From positions 372,001 to 436,000 of the forward strand of contig NZ_RBIQ01000009.1 of assembly GCF_003634105.1 (NCBI RefSeq): DNA of 64,000 nucleotides, written 5' to 3'. The translations under genes were made by a program, and so were the position numbers. Below the pieces are notes generated by a model. It did not search any database. It was given only the letters and a program-made list of their open reading frames with translations, and was not told where the DNA came from. This document shows, in pieces, positions 51,135-62,090 of this stretch. Every line of letters starts with the position of its first letter. Positions within the stretch are counted from its first letter, which is position 1. The stretch comes from Maribacter vaceletii (lineage in GTDB: Bacteria; Bacteroidota; Bacteroidia; Flavobacteriales; Flavobacteriaceae).

Positions 51135-52022
51135 TTATGCTTTAGAGGCTCTATGTCTTTCTCTTGCTAATAACGTATTTTTTAATAACATAGCAATAGT
51201 CATAGGTCCTACTCCTCCAGGAACTGGAGTAATAAAAGATGCTTTTTTGCTTACATTATCAAAATCTACATCTCCTGTAATACGGTATCCTCTAGGCTTA
51301 GTTTCATCTGGCACTCTGGTTATACCAACATCTATAATAACAGCATCGTCTTTTACCATTTCTGCTTTTAAGAAATTAGGTACTCCTAAGGCCGAAATTA
51401 CAATATCTGCTTGTGATATTATCTGTGTAATATTCTTTGTTCTACTATGCGTAAGAGTAACAGTAGAATTTCCTGGCCACCCTTTTCTTCCCATTAAAAT
51501 ACTCATTGGGCGACCCACAATATGACTTCTACCAATTACAACGGTGTGTTTTCCTTGGGTTTCTACTTTATAACGTTCTAGTAACTCTAATATCCCAAAA
51601 GGCGTTGCTGGAATAAAAGTACTCATATCTAACGCCATTTTACCAAAGTTGGTTGGGTGAAACCCATCTACATCTTTATTTGGATCTACAGCTAATAAAA
51701 CTTTTTGCTCATTAATTTGTGGAGGTAATGGTAATTGTATAATAAAACCATCTATATCGTCATTCTGGTTTAACTCCTCAATTTTATTTAGCAATTCTAT
51801 TTCTGAAGTGGTACTAGGCAACTGCACCAAAGTAGATTCAAAACCTATACGTTCACAAGAACGAACTTTACTACCTACATAGGTTAAACTAGCCCCATCA
51901 TTACCTACTAAAACAGCGGCTAAATGTGGTACTTTCTCCCCTCTTTCCTTCATTTTTGCTACCTCAGCAGCAATTTCATCTTTAATTTCGTTTGATACTT
52001 TTTTACCGTCTAGTAATTCCAT
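51135..52022 (-). CDS. folD: Methylenetetrahydrofolate dehydrogenase/cyclohydrolase
   Basis: 295 residues. Bifunctional enzyme that oxidises 5,10-methylene-THF and hydrolyses the methenyl form to 10-formyl-THF. Motifs: LTYVGSKVRSCERIGF (YVxxK Lys, about 50-55), GFIIQLPLPPQINEQKV, NPNKDVDGFHPTN (VDGFH), PATPFGILELLERY, VVIGRSHIVGRPMSILM (GRSxxVGxP NADP loop), TVTLTHSRTKN, and the C-terminal TPVPGGVGPMTIAMLL. Length and motifs agree with bacterial FolD. It follows ffh by 67 bp on the same strand and ends in a strong terminator. Confidence 0.96.
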   Translation of the reverse strand: MELLDGKKVSNEIKDEIAAEVAKMKERGEKVPHLAAVLVGNDGASLTYVGSKVRSCERIGFESTLVQLPSTTSEIELLNKIEELNQNDDIDGFIIQLPLPPQINEQKVLLAVDPNKDVDGFHPTNFGKMALDMSTFIPATPFGILELLERYKVETQGKHTVVIGRSHIVGRPMSILMGRKGWPGNSTVTLTHSRTKNITQIISQADIVISALGVPNFLKAEMVKDDAVIIDVGITRVPDETKPRGYRITGDVDFDNVSKKASFITPVPGGVGPMTIAMLLKNTLLARERHRASKA

Positions 52023-52089
52023 TTTCTTGCAAAATACTGTTTAAAAAGGTGCATTAATAACACCATATATAGTTAATGTGTTTTGTTTT

Positions 52090-53430
52090 TTAAGGACGCA
52101 TTCCTTTCATGTTGCCCATCATTTGCATCATCTTTTTACCGCCACCACCTTGCATCATTTTCATCATTTTACTCATCTGGTCAAACTGCTTTAATAATTG
52201 GTTTACCTCTTGAATATTACGGCCACTACCCTTTGCAATACGTTTTTTACGACTAGCATTTAAGGAGGAAGGTGTAGACCTTTCACTTGGGGTCATAGAA
52301 TGTATAATAGCTTCTATGTGTTTAAAAGCATCATCATCTATATCTAACCCTTTTAAAGCTTTTCCAGCTCCAGGTATCATCCCCATTAAATCCTTAATGT
52401 TACCCATTTTTTTAATTTGCTGAATTTGCTTCAGGAAATCATCAAAACCAAACTTATTTTTGGCAATTTTCTTTTGGATTTTTCTAGCCTCTTCTTCATC
52501 AAACTGCTCTTGCGCGCGCTCTACTAAAGAAATAACATCTCCCATTCCAAGAATACGTTCTGCCATACGAGAAGGATGAAAAACGTCTATAGCTTCCATC
52601 TTTTCTCCTGTACCAATAAACTTTATTGGCTTATCTACAACAGACTTAATAGATATTGCTGCACCACCACGAGTATCCCCATCTAACTTAGTAAGTATAA
52701 CCCCATCAAAATTAAGAATATCATTAAAAGCTTTTGCTGTATTTACGGCATCTTGCCCAGTCATAGCATCTACCACAAATAAAGTTTCTTGCGGTTCTAT
52801 AGCTTTATGAATGTTAGAGATTTCGGCCATCATTTTTTCGTCTACGGCTAAACGACCGGCAGTATCTATAATTACTACATCATTACCATTTGCTTTGGCT
52901 TGTACTATACCTGCTTGTGCAATGGCAACTGGGTCATTATTTTCTTTATCCGAATAAACCTCAACATTTATTTGCCCCCCAACTACATGTAATTGATCAA
53001 TAGCTGCAGGACGATACACATCACAAGCTACTAATAAAGGATTTTTTGACTTTTTATTTTTTAAAAAATTTGCCAGTTTACCAGAAAAAGTTGTTTTACC
53101 AGAACCTTGTAAACCAGACATTAAAACTATTGTTGGTTTTCCCGAAAGGTTAATACCTTCGGTCTCACCACCCATTAATGCTGTTAACTCATCTTTTACA
53201 ATCTTAACCATTAATTGGCCAGGTTGTAATGTGGTAAGTACATCAGAACCTAATGCTTTTTCCTTTACCTTATTGGTAAATTCTTTTGCAATTTTAAAGT
53301 TAACATCGGCATCTAATAGTGCTCTACGCACTTCTTTAGTTGTTTCTGCAACATTAATTTCTGTAATCTGACCATGTCCTTTTAAGACGTGGAGTGCTTT
53401 ATCTAGCTTTTCACTTAAATTATCAAACAT
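52090..53430 (-). CDS. ffh: Signal recognition particle protein Ffh (SRP54)
   Basis: 446-residue SRP GTPase that delivers nascent membrane proteins to FtsY. N domain, then G domain: Walker A GLQGSGKTTFSGKLA (about 107), DVYRPAAIDQL, DTAGRLAVDEKMM, TKLDGDTRGGAAIS, GTGEKMEAIDVF. The C-terminal M domain is methionine-rich, with the RNA-binding end SMTPSERS, FDQMSKMMKMMQ and GGGGKKMMQMMGNMKGMRP. Length agrees with bacterial Ffh. A perfect TAAATTTG box lies 25 nt upstream of the ATG. The SRP RNA gene is not seen in this window. Confidence 0.97.
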   Translation of the reverse strand: MFDNLSEKLDKALHVLKGHGQITEINVAETTKEVRRALLDADVNFKIAKEFTNKVKEKALGSDVLTTLQPGQLMVKIVKDELTALMGGETEGINLSGKPTIVLMSGLQGSGKTTFSGKLANFLKNKKSKNPLLVACDVYRPAAIDQLHVVGGQINVEVYSDKENNDPVAIAQAGIVQAKANGNDVVIIDTAGRLAVDEKMMAEISNIHKAIEPQETLFVVDAMTGQDAVNTAKAFNDILNFDGVILTKLDGDTRGGAAISIKSVVDKPIKFIGTGEKMEAIDVFHPSRMAERILGMGDVISLVERAQEQFDEEEARKIQKKIAKNKFGFDDFLKQIQQIKKMGNIKDLMGMIPGAGKALKGLDIDDDAFKHIEAIIHSMTPSERSTPSSLNASRKKRIAKGSGRNIQEVNQLLKQFDQMSKMMKMMQGGGGKKMMQMMGNMKGMRP

Positions 53431-53455
53431 CTTCTTGCTATATTAAGAGGGAAGG

Positions 53456-53463
53456 CAAATTTA
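53456..53463 (-). promoter_or_regulatory. -7 promoter box TAAATTTG of ffh
   Basis: Perfect TANNTTTG match on the minus strand, 25 nt before the ffh ATG at 53430. Confidence 0.55.
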
Positions 53464-53512
53464 AGAATATCCGCTGTAAGTGGGTAGCTTACAGGCAAAA
53501 ATATGTGATACA

Positions 53513-53543
53513 AAAAGCGCCTATTATTAAAATAGGCGCTTTT
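53513..53543 (-). terminator. Terminator of the repeat lipoprotein gene
   Basis: 13-bp stem AAAAGCGCCTATT/AATAGGCGCTTTT with loop ATTAA, about 25 bp past the stop at 53569 on the minus strand. Confidence 0.88.
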
Positions 53544-53568
53544 CTTAAAAATGTGGGGTAAAAAAGGT

Positions 53569-55329
53569 TTATTTTTTTTCTAAAACAAGGTGATCATACC
53601 CACCATTATCGTTTTCATGTTTTAGTTCTAATCTATTTTCTTCTACTTCTAAAAGTATATAATCATTAGCTAAAGGATAAAAATTACTGTCTGCACCAAA
53701 GGTTATAATCATTTCTAACTTATTATCGCTATTTCTATATACCAACCATCTTCCTGTACTTACTTCTACTTGATTAGGATTATACACCGTTACTTTACCA
53801 TTTGCACTAAAAGAGAATTCATAATTTGTATACGCTTCTGTACTTGGGTCTTGGTTTTCTGAGAAAAGAGCAACTTCCCAAAGGCTATCGTTAAATAAAC
53901 CTCTTATCCATACTACATCTTCATCATCTACATCATTATCACAATTTCTCTCTAAAATAAGTTCATAACCAGTACCTGGGATTTCAAACTTTAAACGATT
54001 GTCTCTAAGATCAGACAAAGGCCATTCAAAACTAACACCTGGTTCATTGCCCATTGTTATTGCCATTACTAATCTTGCTTGTGCATTAAGTGTTATTTCC
54101 CATGTTCCTTCAGAAGAAACCTCTTCATTACTTAAAGTAACTACACCATCTGCCATAAAATTAAACTCGTATCCTAATAAACGATCTAACTCTTGATTAT
54201 CTCTTTTTACTTTTTTAATTATCCAACTACATTCTTTTAATACTTGTCGTAATGTATTTGGGTCTTTATCTATAACATTACAGGCTTTCTTCATGATAAT
54301 TTTATTACCACCTTCGGCAAATAATTTAATTTTACCCTCTTCTAATTCATATACAAACCAGTCTAAAGAAAAATCCATTAAAGCTGTAAATTCTAATTTT
54401 AATAAAACTCTATTATTAGAAACTCTGGTTGTCCATTCTCCTTCAATACTATTTCCTTCTCTATCTTTTGCAGTTACCGAACCATTTGCAGAAAAATTCA
54501 TTGCATATTCAAAATACTGCTCTGTTTGGTCTTGTTCATTTCTTTGCACATCATGTATTAACCATGGGCAAGCAACTAAATATGCATCTAAACGCTCTTT
54601 AGAAAAATCATCATCATTATGGTCATTATCATCATCTTCATCACAAGTTTCTTTTGCACTTTCTATAGCTACAGCCAATTCTGCATTCGTATTTACAACA
54701 ACCTCTGTACCATCATATAATTTTAGGGTTACAGGAAAATCCATACTCACTAATTGGTTCCCTTCTAACCCTGCAAAAAATCTTCTTAATTGCTTATCAC
54801 TTTCTATAGTAGCATTACCTGTTTGTTGGTTGTTAACATCAAACGTGAAAACCGTTAAAGGATATACAAAATCTATACATTCTATATCATCATCTTTACC
54901 ACCTTCTATACATTCTTTTGCTTTTTCTAGTAATGCTTCTTTTGATGCTATAGTAATTTCTGTATAATCTGCTAAAGTTATTGTTATTGGAAAAATAATA
55001 TCTACAATATCACTATCTAAATCAACCTTATCTAATAACTCTTCTACAGTTGCTAAATCTTCTTTAGAATCTAAAGTTACATCTAAGCCGTTTACATTAA
55101 CTGTGTAAGGGAATTCTATTGCAAAGCAACTTACACCATCTACAATATTATCAAAAGAACCATCTTGTGATGATGTATCTGTAATAAGTTTTGCCGCTGC
55201 AGAGTTTGCAGTAATTGACTCGTTTTCTTCTCCGTTAGATATTTCTTCAAATTCATCTTGGCATGAAGTAAATGATATTGCAAGTGCTAATAAACTTGCA
55301 AACAATGTGGTTTTAAAAAACTTTTTCAT
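53569..55329 (-). CDS. Repeat-built lipoprotein in the ECF-sigma island
   Basis: 586 residues, lipoprotein signal with Cys at about 23 (LAISFTSCQDE). No family recognised. Two sets of internal repeats are visible. N-terminal set, four copies of about 45-70 residues (about 68-250), each with a pattern like FPxTV...DGxxVxIxSxxEL: IEFPYTVNVNGLDVTL; IIFPITITLADYTEITI; FVYPLTVFTFDVNNQQ; MDFPVTLKLYDGTEVVV. An acidic linker CDEDDDNDHNDDD follows. C-terminal set, three lipocalin-like copies of about 100 residues each (about 255-585): FEYAMNFSANGSVTAKDREG, GYEFNFMADGVVTLSNE, NYEFSFSANGKVTVYNP. Surface binding is inferred. Divergent from the sigma gene and preceded by the AGTAGGGTATTT motif also found before fecR. 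Confidence 0.75.
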   Translation of the reverse strand: MKKFFKTTLFASLLALAISFTSCQDEFEEISNGEENESITANSAAAKLITDTSSQDGSFDNIVDGVSCFAIEFPYTVNVNGLDVTLDSKEDLATVEELLDKVDLDSDIVDIIFPITITLADYTEITIASKEALLEKAKECIEGGKDDDIECIDFVYPLTVFTFDVNNQQTGNATIESDKQLRRFFAGLEGNQLVSMDFPVTLKLYDGTEVVVNTNAELAVAIESAKETCDEDDDNDHNDDDFSKERLDAYLVACPWLIHDVQRNEQDQTEQYFEYAMNFSANGSVTAKDREGNSIEGEWTTRVSNNRVLLKLEFTALMDFSLDWFVYELEEGKIKLFAEGGNKIIMKKACNVIDKDPNTLRQVLKECSWIIKKVKRDNQELDRLLGYEFNFMADGVVTLSNEEVSSEGTWEITLNAQARLVMAITMGNEPGVSFEWPLSDLRDNRLKFEIPGTGYELILERNCDNDVDDEDVVWIRGLFNDSLWEVALFSENQDPSTEAYTNYEFSFSANGKVTVYNPNQVEVSTGRWLVYRNSDNKLEMIITFGADSNFYPLANDYILLEVEENRLELKHENDNGGYDHLVLEKK

Positions 55330-55362
55330 AACGATTTGGATTTTTATTTGTTTCTACAACTC

Positions 55363-55392
55363 TAAAACAACCAACTTTTAAAATACCCTACT
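55363..55392 (-). promoter_or_regulatory. Candidate ECF-sigma promoter of the repeat lipoprotein
   Basis: On the minus strand AGTAGGGTATTT (55392-55381), 11 nt, TGTTTTA (55369-55363); about 34 nt before the ATG. The same two blocks at the same spacing occur before fecR (56091-56120). Confidence 0.6.
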
Positions 55393-55415
55393 TCTGCTGT
55401 TAATTTTTTTTAAAA

Positions 55416-55423
55416 TATATTTG
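55416..55423 (+). promoter_or_regulatory. -7 box TATATTTG of the ECF sigma gene
   Basis: Perfect TANNTTTG match 16 nt before the TTG start at 55440; a housekeeping-type promoter for the sigma gene, unlike the AGTAGGGTATTT type used at the two flanking genes. Confidence 0.5.
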
Positions 55424-55439
55424 AGGTAAAATTAACCCC

Positions 55440-55952
55440 TTGAACAATAAAGAGCAAAACAACGTTTGTAAAGAAGAGGTATTTAGTGCTTTATTTTCTT
55501 CTCATTCTAAAACGGTATTTAACTACATATATTATAAGTATGGTAATGAAGAAAAAGCGTATGATGCTGTACAAGAAGCTTTTGTAAAGTTATGGGAGAA
55601 CTGTAGTAAAGTTGCACCTCCTAAGGCTAAGTCCTATGTATATACCATAGCCAACAACCTGTATTTAAATGTTATTAAAGCAGAAAAGGTTCGTTTTAAA
55701 CATAGGGATAAAGTAGCGACTACTACTAATGAGTCTCCAGAATTTTTAATGGAAGAGAATCAATTTAAAGAAAAACTAGAAGCTGCCTTAGATAGTTTAC
55801 CAGAAAACCAACGTACCACTTTTTTATTGAACAGGATTGATGGTAAAAAATATAAAGAGATTGCCGAAATGGAAGGCGTAAGTGTAAAGGCTATTGAAAA
55901 AAGAATGCATTTGGCACTAAAGTCTTTGCGCGAAAAGATTGATGGGATTTAA
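55440..55952 (+). CDS. RNA polymerase ECF-type sigma factor
   Basis: 170 residues, TTG start. Region 2: TVFNYIYYKYGNEEKAYDAVQEAFVKLWENC (about 22-52, with the DAVQEAFVKLW core) and KSYVYTIANNLYLNVIKAEK; region 4: ALDSLPENQRTTFLLNRIDGKKYKEIAEMEGVSVKAIEKRMHLALKSLREKIDGI with the recognition helix. No region 1.1 or 3, hence ECF (sigma-70 family group 4). It belongs with the FecR anti-sigma/transducer at 56140 and the STN-type TonB receptor at 57032, the classic FecI-FecR-FecA surface signalling chain. The gene has a housekeeping box, and a composite repeat lies between it and fecR. Confidence 0.93.
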   Translation: MNNKEQNNVCKEEVFSALFSSHSKTVFNYIYYKYGNEEKAYDAVQEAFVKLWENCSKVAPPKAKSYVYTIANNLYLNVIKAEKVRFKHRDKVATTTNESPEFLMEENQFKEKLEAALDSLPENQRTTFLLNRIDGKKYKEIAEMEGVSVKAIEKRMHLALKSLREKIDGI

Positions 55953-56080
55953 ATTTGGTTGATAGCTGTTGGTTGTTGGTGAAAAATTAAAAAATAGTAA
56001 AAGAAAAACAAAACAACTTTGGACATTGGACTTTAGACTTTAGACTTTAGACTTTAGACTTTAGACTTTAGACTTTAGAC
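55953..56080 (+). repeat. Intergenic element with GTTGATAG/GTTGGTTG head and GACTTTA tandem repeat
   Basis: Starts right after the sigma stop with ATTTGGTTGATAGCTGTTGGTTGTTGGTG, then AAAACAACTTTGGACATTG and a run of the heptamer GACTTTA (56029-56080, about 7.4 copies). Third member of the element family at 18918 and 42719; its heptamer differs by one base (A for G). Confidence 0.85.
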
Positions 56081-56090
56081 AAAATTAAAA

Positions 56091-56120
56091 AGTAGGGTAT
56101 TTACCTTTACAGGTGTTATA
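56091..56120 (+). promoter_or_regulatory. Candidate ECF-sigma promoter of fecR
   Basis: AGTAGGGTATTT (56091-56102), 11 nt, TGTTATA (56114-56120), ATG at 56140. Same architecture as 55392-55363 on the other strand. Confidence 0.6.
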
Positions 56121-56139
56121 AACATATAAGCTAGAAAAA

Positions 56140-57051
56140 ATGCAAGAAAATTACTTAGCAAAATGGCTCAACAATGAATTGACGGATACAGAACTCGCGG
56201 AATTTAAAAAATCTGATGAGTATGCTTCCTATATAAAAATAAAAGAGGCATCGTCTAATTTAGAAGCTCCTGCTTTTAATATAGATGCCGCTTGGAATGA
56301 ACATAAAAACAGACGTATAGTAGAAGAATCTAAAACCATACAACTAAAACCATACAAACGCTTTTTACAACTTGCTGCAGCCGTTGCGGTTTTACTAGTA
56401 GCGTCTTATTTTTATTTAGGAACTTTAGATCAATCTATAAGTACCCAATACGCGGAAAACAAAGAAGTAATTTTACCAGATACATCAGAAGTTTTATTGA
56501 ATGCAGAATCTTCTGTTTCATATAGTGAAAAAAACTGGGACAAAGAGCGTAACATTTCCTTAGAAGGAGAGGCTTATTTTAAGGTTGCTAAAGGAAAACG
56601 CTTTACCGTTGCTACAGATAATGGTACTGTGGCTGTTTTAGGTACGCAATTTAATGTTGAAAATAGAAATAACTTTTTTGAAGTTACTTGTTTTGAAGGT
56701 TTGGTACGTGTTACTTATAATAATAAAGAAACCAAACTAACTGCAGGCACTTCTTTTCTTGTTATAGATGGTAAAGAAATTGCCGTAAATGGCCCGGAGA
56801 ATACTGCCCCTTCTTGGATAAACAAAGAAAGTTCTTTTAATAGCATTCCTTTATCTTATGTTTTTAACGAATTTCAAAGACAACATAATGTAACAGTGGA
56901 AACTAAAAACATAGATACTAAGCAATTATTTACAGGTACTTTTAGCAATACCAACATTAATTTAGCGTTGCAAAGTATAAGCGTTCCTACTCAAATACAA
57001 TACACATTAGAGGGGAATAAAGTAGTTTTCTATGCTAAAAACGCAGAATAA
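56140..57051 (+). CDS. FecR-type anti-sigma/signal transducer
   Basis: 303 residues, inner-membrane protein. N-terminal cytoplasmic part (1-76, MQENYLAKWLNNELTDTELAEF) is the anti-sigma-like domain; a membrane segment FLQLAAAVAVLLVASYFYLG (about 71-92) is next; the periplasmic FecR domain (about 100-205) has EVILPDTSEVLLNAESSVSYSEKNWDKERNISLEGEAYFKVAKGKRFTVATDNGTVAVLGTQFNVENRNNFFEVTCFEGLVRV; and the DUF4974 domain (about 225-300) SSFNSIPLSYVFNEFQRQHNVTVETKNIDTKQLFTGTFSNTNINLALQSISVPTQIQY has the STN-like fold. It overlaps the receptor gene by 20 bp (57032-57051) and shares the operon. It likely senses the receptor STN domain. Confidence 0.93.
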   Translation: MQENYLAKWLNNELTDTELAEFKKSDEYASYIKIKEASSNLEAPAFNIDAAWNEHKNRRIVEESKTIQLKPYKRFLQLAAAVAVLLVASYFYLGTLDQSISTQYAENKEVILPDTSEVLLNAESSVSYSEKNWDKERNISLEGEAYFKVAKGKRFTVATDNGTVAVLGTQFNVENRNNFFEVTCFEGLVRVTYNNKETKLTAGTSFLVIDGKEIAVNGPENTAPSWINKESSFNSIPLSYVFNEFQRQHNVTVETKNIDTKQLFTGTFSNTNINLALQSISVPTQIQYTLEGNKVVFYAKNAE

Positions 57052-59584
57052 CAAATTAGCTTTTTTTCTTTTTGCACTGCTTTTTCTCTGTTATACTACA
57101 GGAAGTGCACAAGAAACACAAACTGCTACCTTACCTTTAAAAGAACAACTTAAAAAGTTAGAGAACACATACGCTATAAAATTTTCTTTTGTAGACTCTG
57201 CTATTTCTAATATAAAAACGAACCTTATAAGTACTGGTTCTTTACAAGAGCAATTAGAGAATATAGCAGAACAAACGAACCTTTCTATTCAAAAAATAAA
57301 CGACCGCTACTACGCCATAACTCTAAAAAAAACAATAACTATTTGCGGCACAATTTTAGATAATTTCAAAAATAAACCGCTTGCAAGTGCCACAATTCAA
57401 GTTATAAATAACACAAAGTCTACTATTGCAAATTCTAATGGAGAGTTTACTATTTCTAATATCCCTAGGGATGCATTACTTCAAATAAAATTTTTAGGAT
57501 ACAAGACCAAATTTATTACCGCAAAAGAGCTTATAAAAAAAGAAACTTGCACCAAAATTGTTATGGCGCAAAAGTATCAGGAATTAAATGAAGTTATAGT
57601 TTATAAATTTCTTACCACAGGGCTAAGTAAAAATAGCAATGGTAGTATTAGTATAAACACAGCAGATTTTGGAATTTTACCAGGCCAAATAGAACCCGAC
57701 ATTCTTAAAACCATACAAGCGCTACCAGGTATTAAAAGTATAGACGAAACTGTTTCTGATATTAATATTAGAGGTGGTACTAATGACCAAAACCTTATCC
57801 TCTGGGATGGTATAAAAATGTATCAATCTGGGCACTTTTTTGGTTTAATATCGGCATTTAACCCTTATTTAACAGACAAAATAACAAGTATAAAAAATGG
57901 AAGTAGCGCGCAATACGGTGATGGTGTTAGTGGCGTTTTAGATATTAAAACTAAAGACAACATAACAAGCACTATTAAAGGCGGAGCTGGTTTAAATTTT
58001 ATTACCGGAGACGCCTATGCAAGAATACCCATCACAAATAAAATAGGTTTTCAGTTTTCTGCAAGACGCTCTCTCACAGATTTTTTAGACACACCTACTT
58101 ACACTCGTTTTTCTGAAAAAGCTTTTCAAGACAGTAATGTATCTAAAGAAAATACAACAGCAGAAAATAAAAGAGATGCTATTTTCTATTTTTATGATTT
58201 TACGGGAAAACTACTTTATGATATGAATGCAAAACATAAAGTTCGTTTTAATGCTATGCGCACTAGCAACACACTTGATTATGTGGAGTCAAGAAATGAC
58301 AGCCTACAATCTACTAGTAACTTAGACCAAACAAATTTTTCTTTTGGAGGAACTTTATCTAGTAGTTGGAGCCCTTATTTTTCTACCAATTTAACAGGCT
58401 ACTATACACAGTATACCCTAAATGCTACTAACATTAACAACAACAATTCCCAAAACTTAGAACAGCGTAATGAGGTTTTAGAAACCGCACTAAAATGGAA
58501 TACTACCTACCAACCAAATGCTAACTTTATTTGGAAAAATGGGTATCACTTAAATGAAGTAGGGATAACCAACTTTACTTTTGTAACGCAGCCGCCTTTT
58601 AACAGTAATATAAAAGGAGTTATTAGAACCCACGCCTTATTTTCTGAAGTAACGTATAACACAGAAGAAGAAAAATTTTATGTGCAAGCTGGTGCAAGAT
58701 TAAACTTCATAGAAAATCTAGATACATTTAAAGAGACTATTTTAGAACCAAGACTAGCTGTTAGTTATAAGGTATCGGATGTTTTTAAGCTGGAAACCAA
58801 AGGAGAGTTTAAAAACCAAAGTACCAACCAGATAATAGATTTAGAGCAAAACTTTTTAGGTATTGAAAAAAGAAGATGGATTTTATCTGACGGGGAACAA
58901 CTACCTATTACAAAAAGCAAACAAGCTTCCTTTGGTATACACTATGACCGTAATAATCTATATATTGGATTAGATGGCTTTTTTAAAGAAGTAAAAGGTA
59001 TAAGTACGGCAACACAAGGCTTTCAAAACCAATACCAATTTAATGGAGAAATAGGGCAATATGCTGTTAAAGGGGTAGAGTTTTTAATTAATAAAAAGAG
59101 TATTTTTTATAGTGTATGGTTAAGTTACGCTTACAATACTAATACGTATACTTTTAAAACCTTAAATCCACAAAATTTTCCTAACAATCTAGATATAAGA
59201 CATACTGCTACAATTGCAGGGACTTATAGCTATAAAAAATTAAAAATAGGATTAGGCTTAAATTATAGAAGTGGTAAACCCTATACCCAGCCACAAGAAG
59301 GAGATAATGCTATAAACACTACTTTTTTCCCTTCTAGAATAAACTACCAAGAACCTAACAGCAGCCGCCTCCCCGAATATATTAGAGCAGACGGTTCTGT
59401 TACCTATAGCTTTAAACTTACACCTAAAATTAAAGCAATTGCAGGAGCAGCTATTCTTAATTTTACAGGCAGAAAAAACATACTTAACACCTATTACAGA
59501 GTAAACCAATCTAATGAAATAGAAACGATACAAAACCTATCTATTGGTGCTACTCCTAACGCTAGTTTTAGGATTAATTTTTAA
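57032..59584 (+). CDS. TonB-dependent receptor with STN signalling domain
   Basis: 850 residues, signal peptide ending near TTGSAQ (about 26). Then: STN domain (about 30-95, ENTYAIKFSFVDSAISNIKTNLISTGSLQEQLENIAEQTNLSIQKINDRYYAI), the secretin/TonB short N-terminal domain that relays signals to FecR; a carboxypeptidase-regulatory-like domain (about 105-185, GTILDNFKNKPLASATIQVINNTKSTIANSNGEFTISNIP); a plug (about 210-310, PDILKTIQALPGIKSIDETVSDINIRGGTNDQNLILWDGIKMYQSGHFFGLISAFNP and KNGSSAQYGDGVSGVLDI); and a barrel ending in ASFRINF with terminal Phe. No SusD gene follows, so it is an iron/siderophore or other nutrient receptor rather than a SusC. Confidence 0.92.
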   Translation: MLKTQNNKLAFFLFALLFLCYTTGSAQETQTATLPLKEQLKKLENTYAIKFSFVDSAISNIKTNLISTGSLQEQLENIAEQTNLSIQKINDRYYAITLKKTITICGTILDNFKNKPLASATIQVINNTKSTIANSNGEFTISNIPRDALLQIKFLGYKTKFITAKELIKKETCTKIVMAQKYQELNEVIVYKFLTTGLSKNSNGSISINTADFGILPGQIEPDILKTIQALPGIKSIDETVSDINIRGGTNDQNLILWDGIKMYQSGHFFGLISAFNPYLTDKITSIKNGSSAQYGDGVSGVLDIKTKDNITSTIKGGAGLNFITGDAYARIPITNKIGFQFSARRSLTDFLDTPTYTRFSEKAFQDSNVSKENTTAENKRDAIFYFYDFTGKLLYDMNAKHKVRFNAMRTSNTLDYVESRNDSLQSTSNLDQTNFSFGGTLSSSWSPYFSTNLTGYYTQYTLNATNINNNNSQNLEQRNEVLETALKWNTTYQPNANFIWKNGYHLNEVGITNFTFVTQPPFNSNIKGVIRTHALFSEVTYNTEEEKFYVQAGARLNFIENLDTFKETILEPRLAVSYKVSDVFKLETKGEFKNQSTNQIIDLEQNFLGIEKRRWILSDGEQLPITKSKQASFGIHYDRNNLYIGLDGFFKEVKGISTATQGFQNQYQFNGEIGQYAVKGVEFLINKKSIFYSVWLSYAYNTNTYTFKTLNPQNFPNNLDIRHTATIAGTYSYKKLKIGLGLNYRSGKPYTQPQEGDNAINTTFFPSRINYQEPNSSRLPEYIRADGSVTYSFKLTPKIKAIAGAAILNFTGRKNILNTYYRVNQSNEIETIQNLSIGATPNASFRINF

Positions 59585-62049
59585 AATTCTCTTTTACCAA
59601 ATTCACTTTCTATGAATTTAGAACGGTTTTTGTTTTTGTTAAATGAATAGGATAGGTTTAAGATAACCCTATCTACCTCTAACACATAATTGGTAGTAGT
59701 AAAAAACTCTCCTTCTCTACTAGTTGTTATTCTTTGTTCATTGGTGTTTAATAATCCCATGTCCATATTTTGCCATTGTAAAGTGGCTACCAACTTATTG
59801 TCCAAAAAGGTTTTTCTAAAGGTTAAATTTGGCAAATAAAATTCCGAATCTTCTCCTTGTGCTGTTTTACGATTAGATAAATAGTTTACCGTAAATTGTA
59901 ATGATGCTGTGTCATTAAAAGTATAGGTACTATTTGCATTTACAGAAAAAATTGTGGCATCGCTATCTACATTACGCCCATCATAAGAACCATCTATGGT
60001 GTAGTTATAAATATTACCTCCTATAAAATTAGACCAGTTTTCTGTTGCCTTAAATTGTGTGCCTAATTCTATACCTGTTACATGTGCTTTTCCTACGTTA
60101 GAATAAATCCTATCTAAAATAGTATCATTAAAAACCTGGTTAACTCTATTTACTAAATTCTTTACATCTCTATAATACGCGGTAGCATAAACCGAATTTC
60201 CATTTTTATATTTCTTAGTGATTCCTAATTCTACTAAATCTATAAATTCTGGACGTAAGGTTGGATCCCCTTGTTCTAAAGTTTCGGAATGTTCTCTTTC
60301 TCTAAACGGGTTTAATTTAAATGAGGCAGTACGTTCTACACGTTTGCTATATGCTATTTTTAATTTAGTAGCATCATTTATGCTGTATTGTAAAGAAGCC
60401 GATGGAAACAACTTAGTATAATTATAAGAATATGTAGTATCTACAGTTTGGGTTTTATCTTTTAAATCTAACACCCTATCCATTGCTTCTATACGAACAC
60501 CTGCAGCATAATCCCATTTACTTTTTTTACCGTTTAACTGTACATAACCCGAGTGTATAGTTCTTGTTAAATCTACCTGACTAGAAAATTCCGGAACCAA
60601 CTCAAACTCTTGCGTTGTATTATTACGTCTTTCATACACGAAATCTCCTTTATGGTCTAAGTTTCTATATTGGTAACCAGTTTCTATATTCCCAAAAGAA
60701 AAAGGAACAAAGCTATAATCTACCTGAGCACGTATTCCGTAAAGTGGGTTATCATTTGTATTAAACTCGTCCTGCAAAATTACTTGTGTATTAGGGTATG
60801 CCAAATTTCTATTTGTAGTTGGCCCTCCTAGCAATGTATACTCATACAGTAGAGAACTAGATAATTTAGATTTGTTAGTAAAAGTATGTTTGTAATCTAA
60901 GCTACCAAGAACAAAATCTCCTTTTCGTATTCTTAAGTTTTCATTGTAATATTGAAAAGTATAATCTCTTGTAGTACCATTAACTGGAGTAATAGAATGG
61001 TTGTCATAATACAAAATATCGGCCCTTCTATCTTTAGAACGCTTTCCTGCAAAAAAGCCAAGAGAAAATTCATTTTTTGTATCTGGTGTATAGTCTAGTG
61101 TAAACCTTCCGGAGTAGTTAGTTTCATCATAACTACGCTCTCCATCCGACGGAAATCTAGTAAACGTATCTCCTATAATGGTATATACATCTCCTTCTCT
61201 TCTACCAGTAACATCATTACGTTGGTAACTTGCTCCAAGAGAAACATTCCATGTATCGGAACGTACATTATACGTAATATCTGCTCCATAACGTTGCGCT
61301 GCCTCCCCATTATCATAATCTTCTATAGAAGGGAAACCACCTTTTACATTAACTTGCGTATACGTACCATTGATAGCACCTTTTTTTGTTATTATATTTA
61401 AAATACCACCTTTACCTTCTGGGTCATATTTTGCCGATGGTGCTGTAATTAACTCTACCCTTTCTACTGCATTTGCTGGTAATTGATTTAAAATAGTTGC
61501 CGCATTACCTTGTACTGGTTTCCCATTTAATAAAGCTACAAAACCTGTGGTTCCACGTACACTTATATCTCCCAAACCATTAACACTTACCGATGGTAAA
61601 TTTTTAATAACATCTGTAGCACTACCTCCTTGGCTATTTTGAAAAACCTTAGCATCATAAACCTGACGGTCTATTTTATTTATTACAGTTGCCCTATTTG
61701 CTTTAACCACAACCTCATCTAATTCATTACCTCCTATTCGTAACCCTAGAGTACCAACCTTTTTTGTACGGCTATTTTCTATAACAATATTTTCTATAGT
61801 TTTAGTTTCATATCCTAAAAAAGATACTTCTAAATAATAGGTTCCTTTTTTTAGATTAGAAATAGTAAATACTCCATTAATATCTGTAATAACTCCTGTT
61901 ACTAGTTCTTTATTCGCTTGCTTAAAAATGGCAGCAGTAGCATACTCTAATGGTTCTTGTGTATCTACATCTATTATTTTACCCGTTACTTGACCAAAGG
62001 TTGTAAGTATTGCAAGTAAAAAAAAAGCAATAAAATATTGGTATTTCAT
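59581..62049 (-). CDS. Outer-membrane beta-barrel/TonB-dependent receptor family protein
   Basis: Signal peptide MKYQYFIAFFLLAILTTFGQ from the ATG at 62049; the frame also opens at 62085, but a perfect -7 box TACATTTG (62083-62090) overlaps that extension, so 62049 is preferred. 822 residues. A carboxypeptidase-regulatory-like domain (about 20-100, GKIIDVDTQEPLEYATAAIFKQANKELVTGVITDINGVFTI) precedes a plug (VIKNLPSVSVNGLGDISVRGTTGFVALLNGKPVQGNAATILNQLPANAVERVELITAPSAKYDPEGKGGILNIITKKG) and a barrel with a C-terminal region. It is the outer_membrane_beta-barrel/TBDT subgroup, without a TonB box or STN domain. It converges on the receptor gene at 57032 with a 4-bp overlap. Confidence 0.88.
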   Translation of the reverse strand: MKYQYFIAFFLLAILTTFGQVTGKIIDVDTQEPLEYATAAIFKQANKELVTGVITDINGVFTISNLKKGTYYLEVSFLGYETKTIENIVIENSRTKKVGTLGLRIGGNELDEVVVKANRATVINKIDRQVYDAKVFQNSQGGSATDVIKNLPSVSVNGLGDISVRGTTGFVALLNGKPVQGNAATILNQLPANAVERVELITAPSAKYDPEGKGGILNIITKKGAINGTYTQVNVKGGFPSIEDYDNGEAAQRYGADITYNVRSDTWNVSLGASYQRNDVTGRREGDVYTIIGDTFTRFPSDGERSYDETNYSGRFTLDYTPDTKNEFSLGFFAGKRSKDRRADILYYDNHSITPVNGTTRDYTFQYYNENLRIRKGDFVLGSLDYKHTFTNKSKLSSSLLYEYTLLGGPTTNRNLAYPNTQVILQDEFNTNDNPLYGIRAQVDYSFVPFSFGNIETGYQYRNLDHKGDFVYERRNNTTQEFELVPEFSSQVDLTRTIHSGYVQLNGKKSKWDYAAGVRIEAMDRVLDLKDKTQTVDTTYSYNYTKLFPSASLQYSINDATKLKIAYSKRVERTASFKLNPFREREHSETLEQGDPTLRPEFIDLVELGITKKYKNGNSVYATAYYRDVKNLVNRVNQVFNDTILDRIYSNVGKAHVTGIELGTQFKATENWSNFIGGNIYNYTIDGSYDGRNVDSDATIFSVNANSTYTFNDTASLQFTVNYLSNRKTAQGEDSEFYLPNLTFRKTFLDNKLVATLQWQNMDMGLLNTNEQRITTSREGEFFTTTNYVLEVDRVILNLSYSFNKNKNRSKFIESEFGKREF

Positions 62050-62082
62050 TCTTCTATTAATTTTGTGAAAATTTAATCTCTG

Positions 62083-62090
62083 CAAATGTA
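62083..62090 (-). promoter_or_regulatory. -7 promoter box TACATTTG of the gene at 62049
   Basis: Perfect TANNTTTG match on the minus strand; leader 33 nt to the ATG at 62049. Confidence 0.5.

Follow-up and report, generated by a model that had tools for sequence, protein, structure and literature searches.

A FecI-like sigma factor of Maribacter vaceletii and its predicted regulon with a small RNA arm

The window analysed here, a stretch of 64,000 nucleotides of the Maribacter vaceletii genome, holds a gene for an ECF sigma factor with a divergent lipoprotein gene on one side and fecR with a TonB-dependent receptor gene on the other (Table 1). A sequence-only reading had noted an identical 12-mer, followed after 11 nt by a second block, in front of both flanking units, had judged a chance origin unlikely, and had proposed the motif as the promoter of the local sigma, with the lipoprotein under the same sigma as fecR. 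A pattern scan of the 64-kb window finds AGTAGGGTATTT-N11-TGTT(T/A)TA exactly at both places and with the spacing described; the generalised form RGTAGGGTWTTT-N11-TGTTWTW is also exact at both, and no other copy of the 30-nt pattern at three or fewer mismatches occurs elsewhere in the window. Shuffled windows gave a mean of 0.25 matches at this tolerance, and two matches were reached in 4 of 100 shuffles.

Table 1. Features of the sigma locus in window coordinates, and class-pattern sites elsewhere in the same genome; promoters are predicted, and named loci are the best 80 of 263
Feature	Position	Strand	Remark
Lipoprotein ECF promoter, AGTAGGGTATTT-N11-TGTTTTA	55363..55392	-	80/80 named loci, at most 3 mismatches
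fecR-receptor operon ECF promoter, AGTAGGGTATTT-N11-TGTTATA	56091..56120	+	74/80 named loci
Sigma gene housekeeping TAnnTTTG box, TATATTTG	55416..55423	+	18-24 nt gap in 80/80
Repeat-built lipoprotein, 586 aa	53569..55329	-	
ECF sigma factor, 170 aa	55440..55952	+	PF04542, PF08281; listed with a TTG start, but where it truly begins is uncertain
FecR-type sigma regulator, 303 aa	56140..57051	+	PF04773, PF16344
TonB-dependent receptor, 850 aa	57032..59584	+	STN-like N-terminus, CarbopepD_reg_2, plug
Class-pattern site	G000:C2:223234		before 55-aa membrane protein
Class-pattern site	G000:C3:265120		before 33-aa membrane protein
Class-pattern site	G000:C2:738519		before 143-aa exported protein
Class-pattern site	G000:C8:50099		before ~105-nt small RNA

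The gene assignments of that reading (lipoprotein, ECF sigma, fecR and TonB receptor) are borne out. The sigma matches PF04542 and PF08281 (regions 2 and 4) above cutoff, and its best NCBIfam match, TIGR02985 (Sig70_bacteroi1), scores 123.1 bits, 3.3 below the curated cutoff of 126.4; the fecR product matches PF04773 with 69.8 bits and PF16344 with 37.8 bits. The receptor gene overlaps fecR by 20 nt. Its product had been called an STN receptor. The plug domain was matched; "STN-like" is a fair but uncertified label for the N-terminus, which matches the FecR C-terminal domain weakly and below cutoff (PF16344 FecR_C, E 8.6e-5, 22.9 bits against 24.4), with PF07660 not reported. An Rfam search over window positions 52000-60000 returned nothing at gathering score. 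Downstream and convergent to the receptor lies a second TonB-type outer membrane protein gene (OMP_b-brl_3, window 59581-62085, minus strand), with an M90 peptidase-like gene beyond it. We also note a 7-bp tandem array of ACTTTAG (9.3 copies, window 56016-56080) whose end is 10 nt short of the fecR promoter; in relatives this gap is occupied by 7-bp arrays that are shorter or of another sequence (AGGAGTT-type in G002 and G007), and the array could vary in length and tune the fecR promoter.

When named genomes of bacteria and archaea were scanned, 263 stretches with a relative of the sigma came up, of which the best 80 were kept; some of these named records seem to be the same genomes as ones in other samples of this analysis. 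The sigmas of the best 80 are 76-92% identical, and their hosts include Maribacter, Zobellia, Arenibacter, Allomuricauda/Flagellimonas, Eudoraea, Robiginitalea and others. On the lipoprotein side RGTAGGGTWTTT-N11-TGTTWTW lies within 450 nt in every one of these best 80 of 263, with 0, 1, 2 and 3 mismatches in 43, 31, 5 and 1 loci; 74 of the same 80 also carry it on the fecR side with no more than three mismatches (36, 27, 7 and 3 loci, plus an exact copy in L237). As for the six fecR-side misses, L175, L183 and L192 end soon after the sigma gene and L177, L208 and L244 carry other sequence there; in genome G005, fecR stands on another contig than the sigma gene and has an exact motif (L085). 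The reversed pattern, run on the same stretches as a control, reached best values of 3-7 mismatches on the lipoprotein side and 4-8 on the fecR side, mostly 5-7. GTAGGGT and TGTT are invariant in the 80 lipoprotein-side and 73 fecR-side aligned sites, while position 1 may be A or G and position 9 A, T or G in relatives, and thus the phrase "identical 12-mer" is correct for the window but understates the variation among relatives.

The sigma gene itself had been read as having a different, housekeeping box, and TATATTTG indeed fits TAnnTTTG, given as the flavobacterial housekeeping -7 consensus in a transcription start study of Flavobacterium psychrophilum (PMC9723704). All of the best 80 of 263 loci have such a box at a distance of 18-24 nt, measured from the 5' end of the lipoprotein ECF motif, and in 73 it is within 60 nt of the start of the sigma match. 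With this gap the ECF -35 element sits about where the housekeeping -33 element is expected, on the other strand, so that the lipoprotein and sigma-gene promoters overlap and occupancy of one should block the other. Such mutual exclusion, we infer, would restrain production of the sigma while its regulon is active. At the 27 paralogous loci described below, the gap was 17-23 nt in four and 74 nt in one, and none was found in the rest; the overlap is therefore established only for this ortholog group. Judged by sequence alone, the sigma gene stands under a housekeeping promoter and fecR and the receptor under the ECF motif.

A genome-wide motif search, which had been named as a check on the promoter proposal, widened its scope: the sites before the lipoprotein gene and fecR stand as claimed, but the motif also precedes further features of the genome. 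At the level of the full motif the genome holds 2 exact, 3 one-mismatch, 2 two-mismatch and 14 three-mismatch sites, 21 in all, as compared to 10 for the reversed control. The relaxed class pattern RGTAGG-N17-TGTYNTA has 7 sites in 3.89 Mb (reversed control 2), and six of the seven lie outside long frames and each point at a conserved feature. The seventh (G000:C5:115606) falls within a 165-codon frame and was set aside as probably due to chance. Other copies were likewise set aside: G000:C3:214874 overlaps what by eye is a likely dapD terminator hairpin, and the AATAGGG copies in G001, G003 and G006 fall within an 803-codon frame. The dapD-terminator copy is kept in two close genomes (L105, L092), again probably by chance.

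Among the features behind the new sites, the 55-aa and 33-aa membrane proteins match no Pfam or NCBIfam family. Proteins of the 33-aa type (27-34 aa) also stand behind the motif in G002, G006, G007 and G025, with a 30-aa form in G132, and in G258 the stretch behind the motif looks like one more of them, though it is absent from the listing of open reading frames. In G086, a relative with 51% identity to the 143-aa protein stands behind an exact motif. Motif copies in G213, G240, G018 and G008 (L388, L395, L115 and L118) are followed by a large secreted protein; those of L388 and L395 are 66% identical, the likeness of the other two was judged by eye, and we regard this protein as a possible regulon member outside the genus of the window.

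The 55-aa gene allowed a broader comparison. We sampled 299 genomes of the family, 47 of which carry a sigma ortholog at E 1e-65 (all at 1.4e-77 or better), and a profile of the gene (A5) at E 1e-5 found it in 40 of the 299, namely 38 of the 47 with the sigma and 2 of the 252 without it, a co-occurrence that partly reflects shared ancestry and for which Fisher p-values ignore the tree. The nine sigma-bearing genomes in which the gene was not detected are G080, G105, G133, G165, G180, G189, G193, G254 and G315. Of the 38 genes in sigma-bearing genomes, 32 have the motif upstream with three mismatches or fewer, and 36 have it with four or fewer. The reversed control upstream of the 55-aa genes had best values of 4-8 and 3-8 mismatches in two batches, and because it thereby reaches 3-4 mismatches, what weight the four-mismatch sites (G008, G018, G201, G318) and the five-mismatch site (G213) have comes solely from standing at the usual distance upstream; before the gene of G110 no recognisable motif was found (best six mismatches). 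Neither sigma-less genome with the gene, G299 or G126, has a motif before it (best 7 and 6 mismatches, respectively); the G126 protein is a distant one (E 3.3e-9), and G299 belongs to the same genus as the sigma-bearing G080. A gene kept without the motif where the sigma is absent would be the expected pattern if the motif serves this sigma, as seen in these two genomes. In G033 (L083) two 55-aa genes stand in tandem behind a single motif.

Behind the site at G000:C8:50099 stands the small RNA. In a set of 60 related genomes, all 11 that bear the sigma ortholog have a conserved, apparently non-coding stretch 3' of the motif, which begins at its 5' end with a TTGCTATGAAAAAG-like sequence and also contains an intrinsic terminator and a box, TTCATGTGTTTAGGTTGGTTTTTTGATTTTG, that hardly varies; the short ATG-frames within it end at different places by eye, so it was not read as a coding gene. 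A covariance model of the 67-position 3' part, with the promoter excluded, was built from these 11 genomes, and over the same 60 genomes it matched at E 4.3e-13 or better in exactly the 11 carriers. The next-best match was 6.9e-7, at a second site in G003, one of the 11, and the best in the 49 non-carriers was 1.1e-4 (G024), with 0.0017 in G004; at E 0.01 weak matches appear as well, with one in 31 of the 60 genomes. Over the 299 family genomes at E 1e-5, the model found the small RNA in 41 of the 47 genomes with the sigma vs none of the 252 without it, a co-occurrence that again owes something to shared ancestry. Of these 41 positives, which span 35 genera, 35 lie outside the model-building set (24 + 11) and 6 within it. 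The ECF motif is present at up to three mismatches within 260 nt upstream of all 41 copies, as compared to 5-8 mismatches for the reversed control, and an ECF promoter followed by a non-coding transcript with an intrinsic terminator can thus be read at 41 of 41 loci. The small RNA was not found at E 1e-5 in six sigma-bearing genomes, G086, G132, G165, G220, G232 and G254, some of which may hold diverged copies, since G132 has the motif followed by a similar 5' start (L390).

The terminator stem is paired in all cells of 32 distinct sequences, with 6 of its 10 pairs changed on both sides; its covariation score was reached by 0 of 500 shuffles, the count of double-changed pairs by 16 and the pair types by 78, in an alignment that had been fitted to the model. 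For the first 11 (9 distinct sequences), whose alignment had no such fitting, all cells are likewise paired, with 5 double-changed pairs, and there the shuffles reached the score in 0 of 500 cases, the double-changed pairs in 34 and the pair types in 491. The copy of the window's own genome folds 4.07 standard deviations below its shuffles. Rfam returned no match at gathering score for six of the loci, and two sub-threshold matches (up to E 1), both at L110. In 10 genomes, the complement of the box has 11 exact matches, all at the small RNA boxes themselves, and no shared target was found in these genomes, where one-mismatch complements number 11 and the reversed control also gives 11; nine of the former overlap frames of at least 80 codons, one overlaps none and one precedes a start. 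The last, G000:C1:1382190-1382203 (L331), is a single candidate target, with the start of a 192-aa membrane protein some 8 nt further on, the genes at one-mismatch sites in other genomes looking different by eye. In G033 the box occurs twice, 88 nt apart. The weaker matches of the model, in the 13 loci read, proved to be other elements, some of which look like bare terminators. Seven of them (L161-L167) represent a second conserved small RNA-like element (GGGTGGTTCCC ... GGTTGGTTATTTAGGAAAAGCCC terminator) with an apparent TAnnTTTG-type promoter, hosted by G000, G001, G002, G003, G005, G006 and G025, the own copy being at G000:C1:1320054-1320119 (L163).

Motif copies also follow the sigma in number. 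The 11 ortholog-bearing genomes of the set of 60 hold 59 motif sites at one mismatch or fewer (reversed control 3), the other 49 hold 23 (reversed control 7). G004, of the same genus as the window, is without the ortholog (its best sigma is 39% identical), has neither the 55-aa gene at E 1e-3 nor a strong small RNA match, and its single motif copy, with one mismatch, was set aside as it lies within a 282-codon coding frame. The association is not strict on either side: no exact motif copy was found in the sigma-bearing G110, G156, G201, G220 and G265, and exact copies exist in 17 of the 252 genomes without the ortholog. Among the latter that were followed, G072 and G063 have a paralogous ECF gene no more than 60 nt from the copy and G247 has one at 2-4 kb, and in G283, G120 and G325 no copy is near such a gene; some cross-reading by related sigmas is therefore likely, and some copies may be chance. 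G247 (L400) also has two exact motifs 186 nt apart in front of a 53-aa protein that contains a single hydrophobic stretch and might also start at another codon, and paralogous sigmas may also control micro-proteins.

Related sigmas provide a comparison of a different kind. At 27 paralogous ECF loci (19 + 8), with sigmas 39-57% identical to that of the window, the class pattern [AG]GTAGG[AGT]-N16-18-TGT[TC]N[TC]A was found at 18 lipoprotein sides and 25 fecR sides, its reversed form at none, and 5 of 10,800 shuffled stretches matched. The motif spellings differ among these loci (GGTAGGAnTTTT, AGTAGGGTAAAA, and TGTC for TGTT).

We consider that these comparative observations, namely the motif in 80/80 and 74/80 named loci, the enrichment, the paralog variants and the 55-aa genes that stand without the motif in two sigma-less genomes, strongly support the proposal that the motif is the promoter of the local ECF sigma; recognition by this sigma is inferred. 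Only the loose three-mismatch count in the window speaks for a chance likeness of two neighbouring promoters, and the conservation of the motif at both places in the named loci refutes it, as had been expected; we put its likelihood at practically nil. Alternatively, the motif might be the operator of a DNA-binding regulator that acts on ordinary housekeeping promoters, as the invariance of the GTAGGGT block and the presence of two blocks that could form an operator would allow. This seems to us very improbable, given that the TGTT block, at the place of a -10 element, is equally invariant, that all 44 paralog matches share one 16-nt spacer where 17 and 18 were also allowed, that the spelling varies from sigma to sigma, and that the window has no further regulator gene in the interval from the lipoprotein to the receptor. 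A promoter read mainly by another ECF sigma, or by several of which the adjacent one is a member, deserves more thought: paralogous ECF-FecR loci use close variants, the 17 genomes with exact copies and no ortholog fit it, and the own genome has 34 candidate sigma relatives at a loose threshold. Against it, a single sigma in that genome reaches E 1e-30, motif copies, small RNA and 55-aa gene all track this ortholog, and the sigma-less G004 and G299 are without the small RNA at carrier-level strength and have the 55-aa gene missing (G004) or without the motif (G299), so that we hold this alternative to be improbable.

The sequence-only reading had gone on to make the lipoprotein a surface partner of the receptor by virtue of co-regulation. 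This does not follow, as the same promoter type also stands before an unlinked small RNA and micro-proteins. The 45 lipoproteins aligned all start with Cys-Gln, and conserved acidic residues come next, a feature that may be read as a surface-export signal; no Pfam or NCBIfam family matched above cutoff and no relative of note was found among PDB sequences (best E 0.58). The predicted structure (mean pLDDT 78, pTM 0.51) may be read, from the order of its strands, as N-terminal alpha/beta repeats followed by three barrels. A physical partnership of the kind TbpB has with TbpA would be in keeping with the conserved acidic residues after the cysteine, with the divergent lipoprotein of the same type that, judged by eye, accompanies some 14 of the 19 paralogous sigma genes, and with the first place of TbpB in the Foldseek ranking. 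The TbpB matches are, however, poorly superposed (TM about 0.1, rmsd about 20) and thus reflect barrels in general, the structures that superpose better, the uncharacterised 5byp and the lipocalin-like 4qrl (target TM 0.53 and 0.61), each consist of one small barrel, and the predicted regulon also holds unlinked genes and a small RNA. The model structure permits, but does not support, the partner role, which we regard as rather unlikely, while a linked role of lipoprotein and receptor is still plausible from the divergent paralog lipoproteins and the Cys-Gln acidic start.

The best explanation overall, to which we would give a probability of roughly 0.86, is that a FecI-like sigma encoded here controls a regulon that includes an RNA arm and is probably subject to negative feedback. 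In this regulon the sigma gene would be expressed from its housekeeping promoter, and a signal at the TonB receptor would pass through FecR to free or activate the sigma. RNA polymerase with the sigma encoded between the two promoters would then read their -35/-10 elements, GTAGGGT ... TTGTTWTA, and the active sigma would drive the lipoprotein, the fecR-receptor operon, the small RNA of ~105 nt with its own terminator, and the 55-aa, 33-aa and 143-aa proteins. FecR, as a target of its own sigma, would represent a first brake, and the lipoprotein ECF promoter, by occluding the housekeeping promoter of the sigma gene, presumably a second. The small RNA would probably lower envelope-protein mRNAs; small RNAs of other envelope-stress sigmas lower the mRNAs of envelope proteins.

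This leads us to speculate that in marine flavobacteria a TonB-receptor/FecR sigma runs an envelope programme like that of sigma-E, with a repressing arm in the small RNA, a protein arm in the micro-proteins and the barrel lipoprotein, and a brake in the promoter overlap, and that GTAGG-N18-TGTY is the promoter code shared by a class of FecI-like sigmas that in many cases neighbour a lipoprotein of this type. We hold this broader proposal tentatively, at somewhat less than even odds. Flavobacteria carry many FecI-like sigmas with unknown targets, for which the motif offers a readable promoter code, and if the proposal is true, GTAGG-N18-TGTY makes such targets readable from sequence. The analysis also yields a concrete predicted six-site regulon in one genome, and a small RNA family matching no Rfam entry at the six loci searched. 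Two predictions can be tested: six RNAs should vanish on deletion of one gene, and higher sigma activity should reduce transcription of the sigma gene itself.

Several known systems resemble parts of this picture. The E. coli sigma-E regulon includes the small RNAs MicA, RybB and MicL, and what it would share with the Maribacter system is an envelope-linked ECF sigma with a small RNA in its regulon; anti-sigma type, promoter and phylum are different. With regard to flavobacteria, the transcription start mapping in F. psychrophilum describes one ECF motif, SM6, with a CGT box, and leaves other ECF starts open (PMC9723704). Both cases concern flavobacterial ECF promoters, and the Rfp18 RNA of that study, a conserved flavobacterial small RNA, may be likened to ours by description; SM6, however, has its CGT box in the -10 region where the Maribacter motif has an invariant TGTT, and the SM6 genes include T9SS components (PMC9723704). 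Group-specific promoter motifs are described for many ECF groups (PMC7406223), and the open-licence literature consulted gave no earlier description of this motif, small RNA or regulon. The nearest model is the FecI-FecR-FecA system of E. coli, where, according to PMC9249621, FecI drives the single promoter of fecA and fecIR is transcribed from a sigma-70 promoter without autoregulation. On that account the two systems share an ECF sigma, FecR and a TonB receptor, a sigma gene transcribed by the housekeeping enzyme and not autoregulated, and a receptor gene driven by the sigma, the last two as predicted from sequence in Maribacter. In E. coli, however, fecR goes with fecI, whereas in Maribacter it goes with the receptor behind the ECF motif, and to the one promoter of FecI the predicted Maribacter regulon adds a divergent lipoprotein, an unlinked small RNA and micro-proteins.
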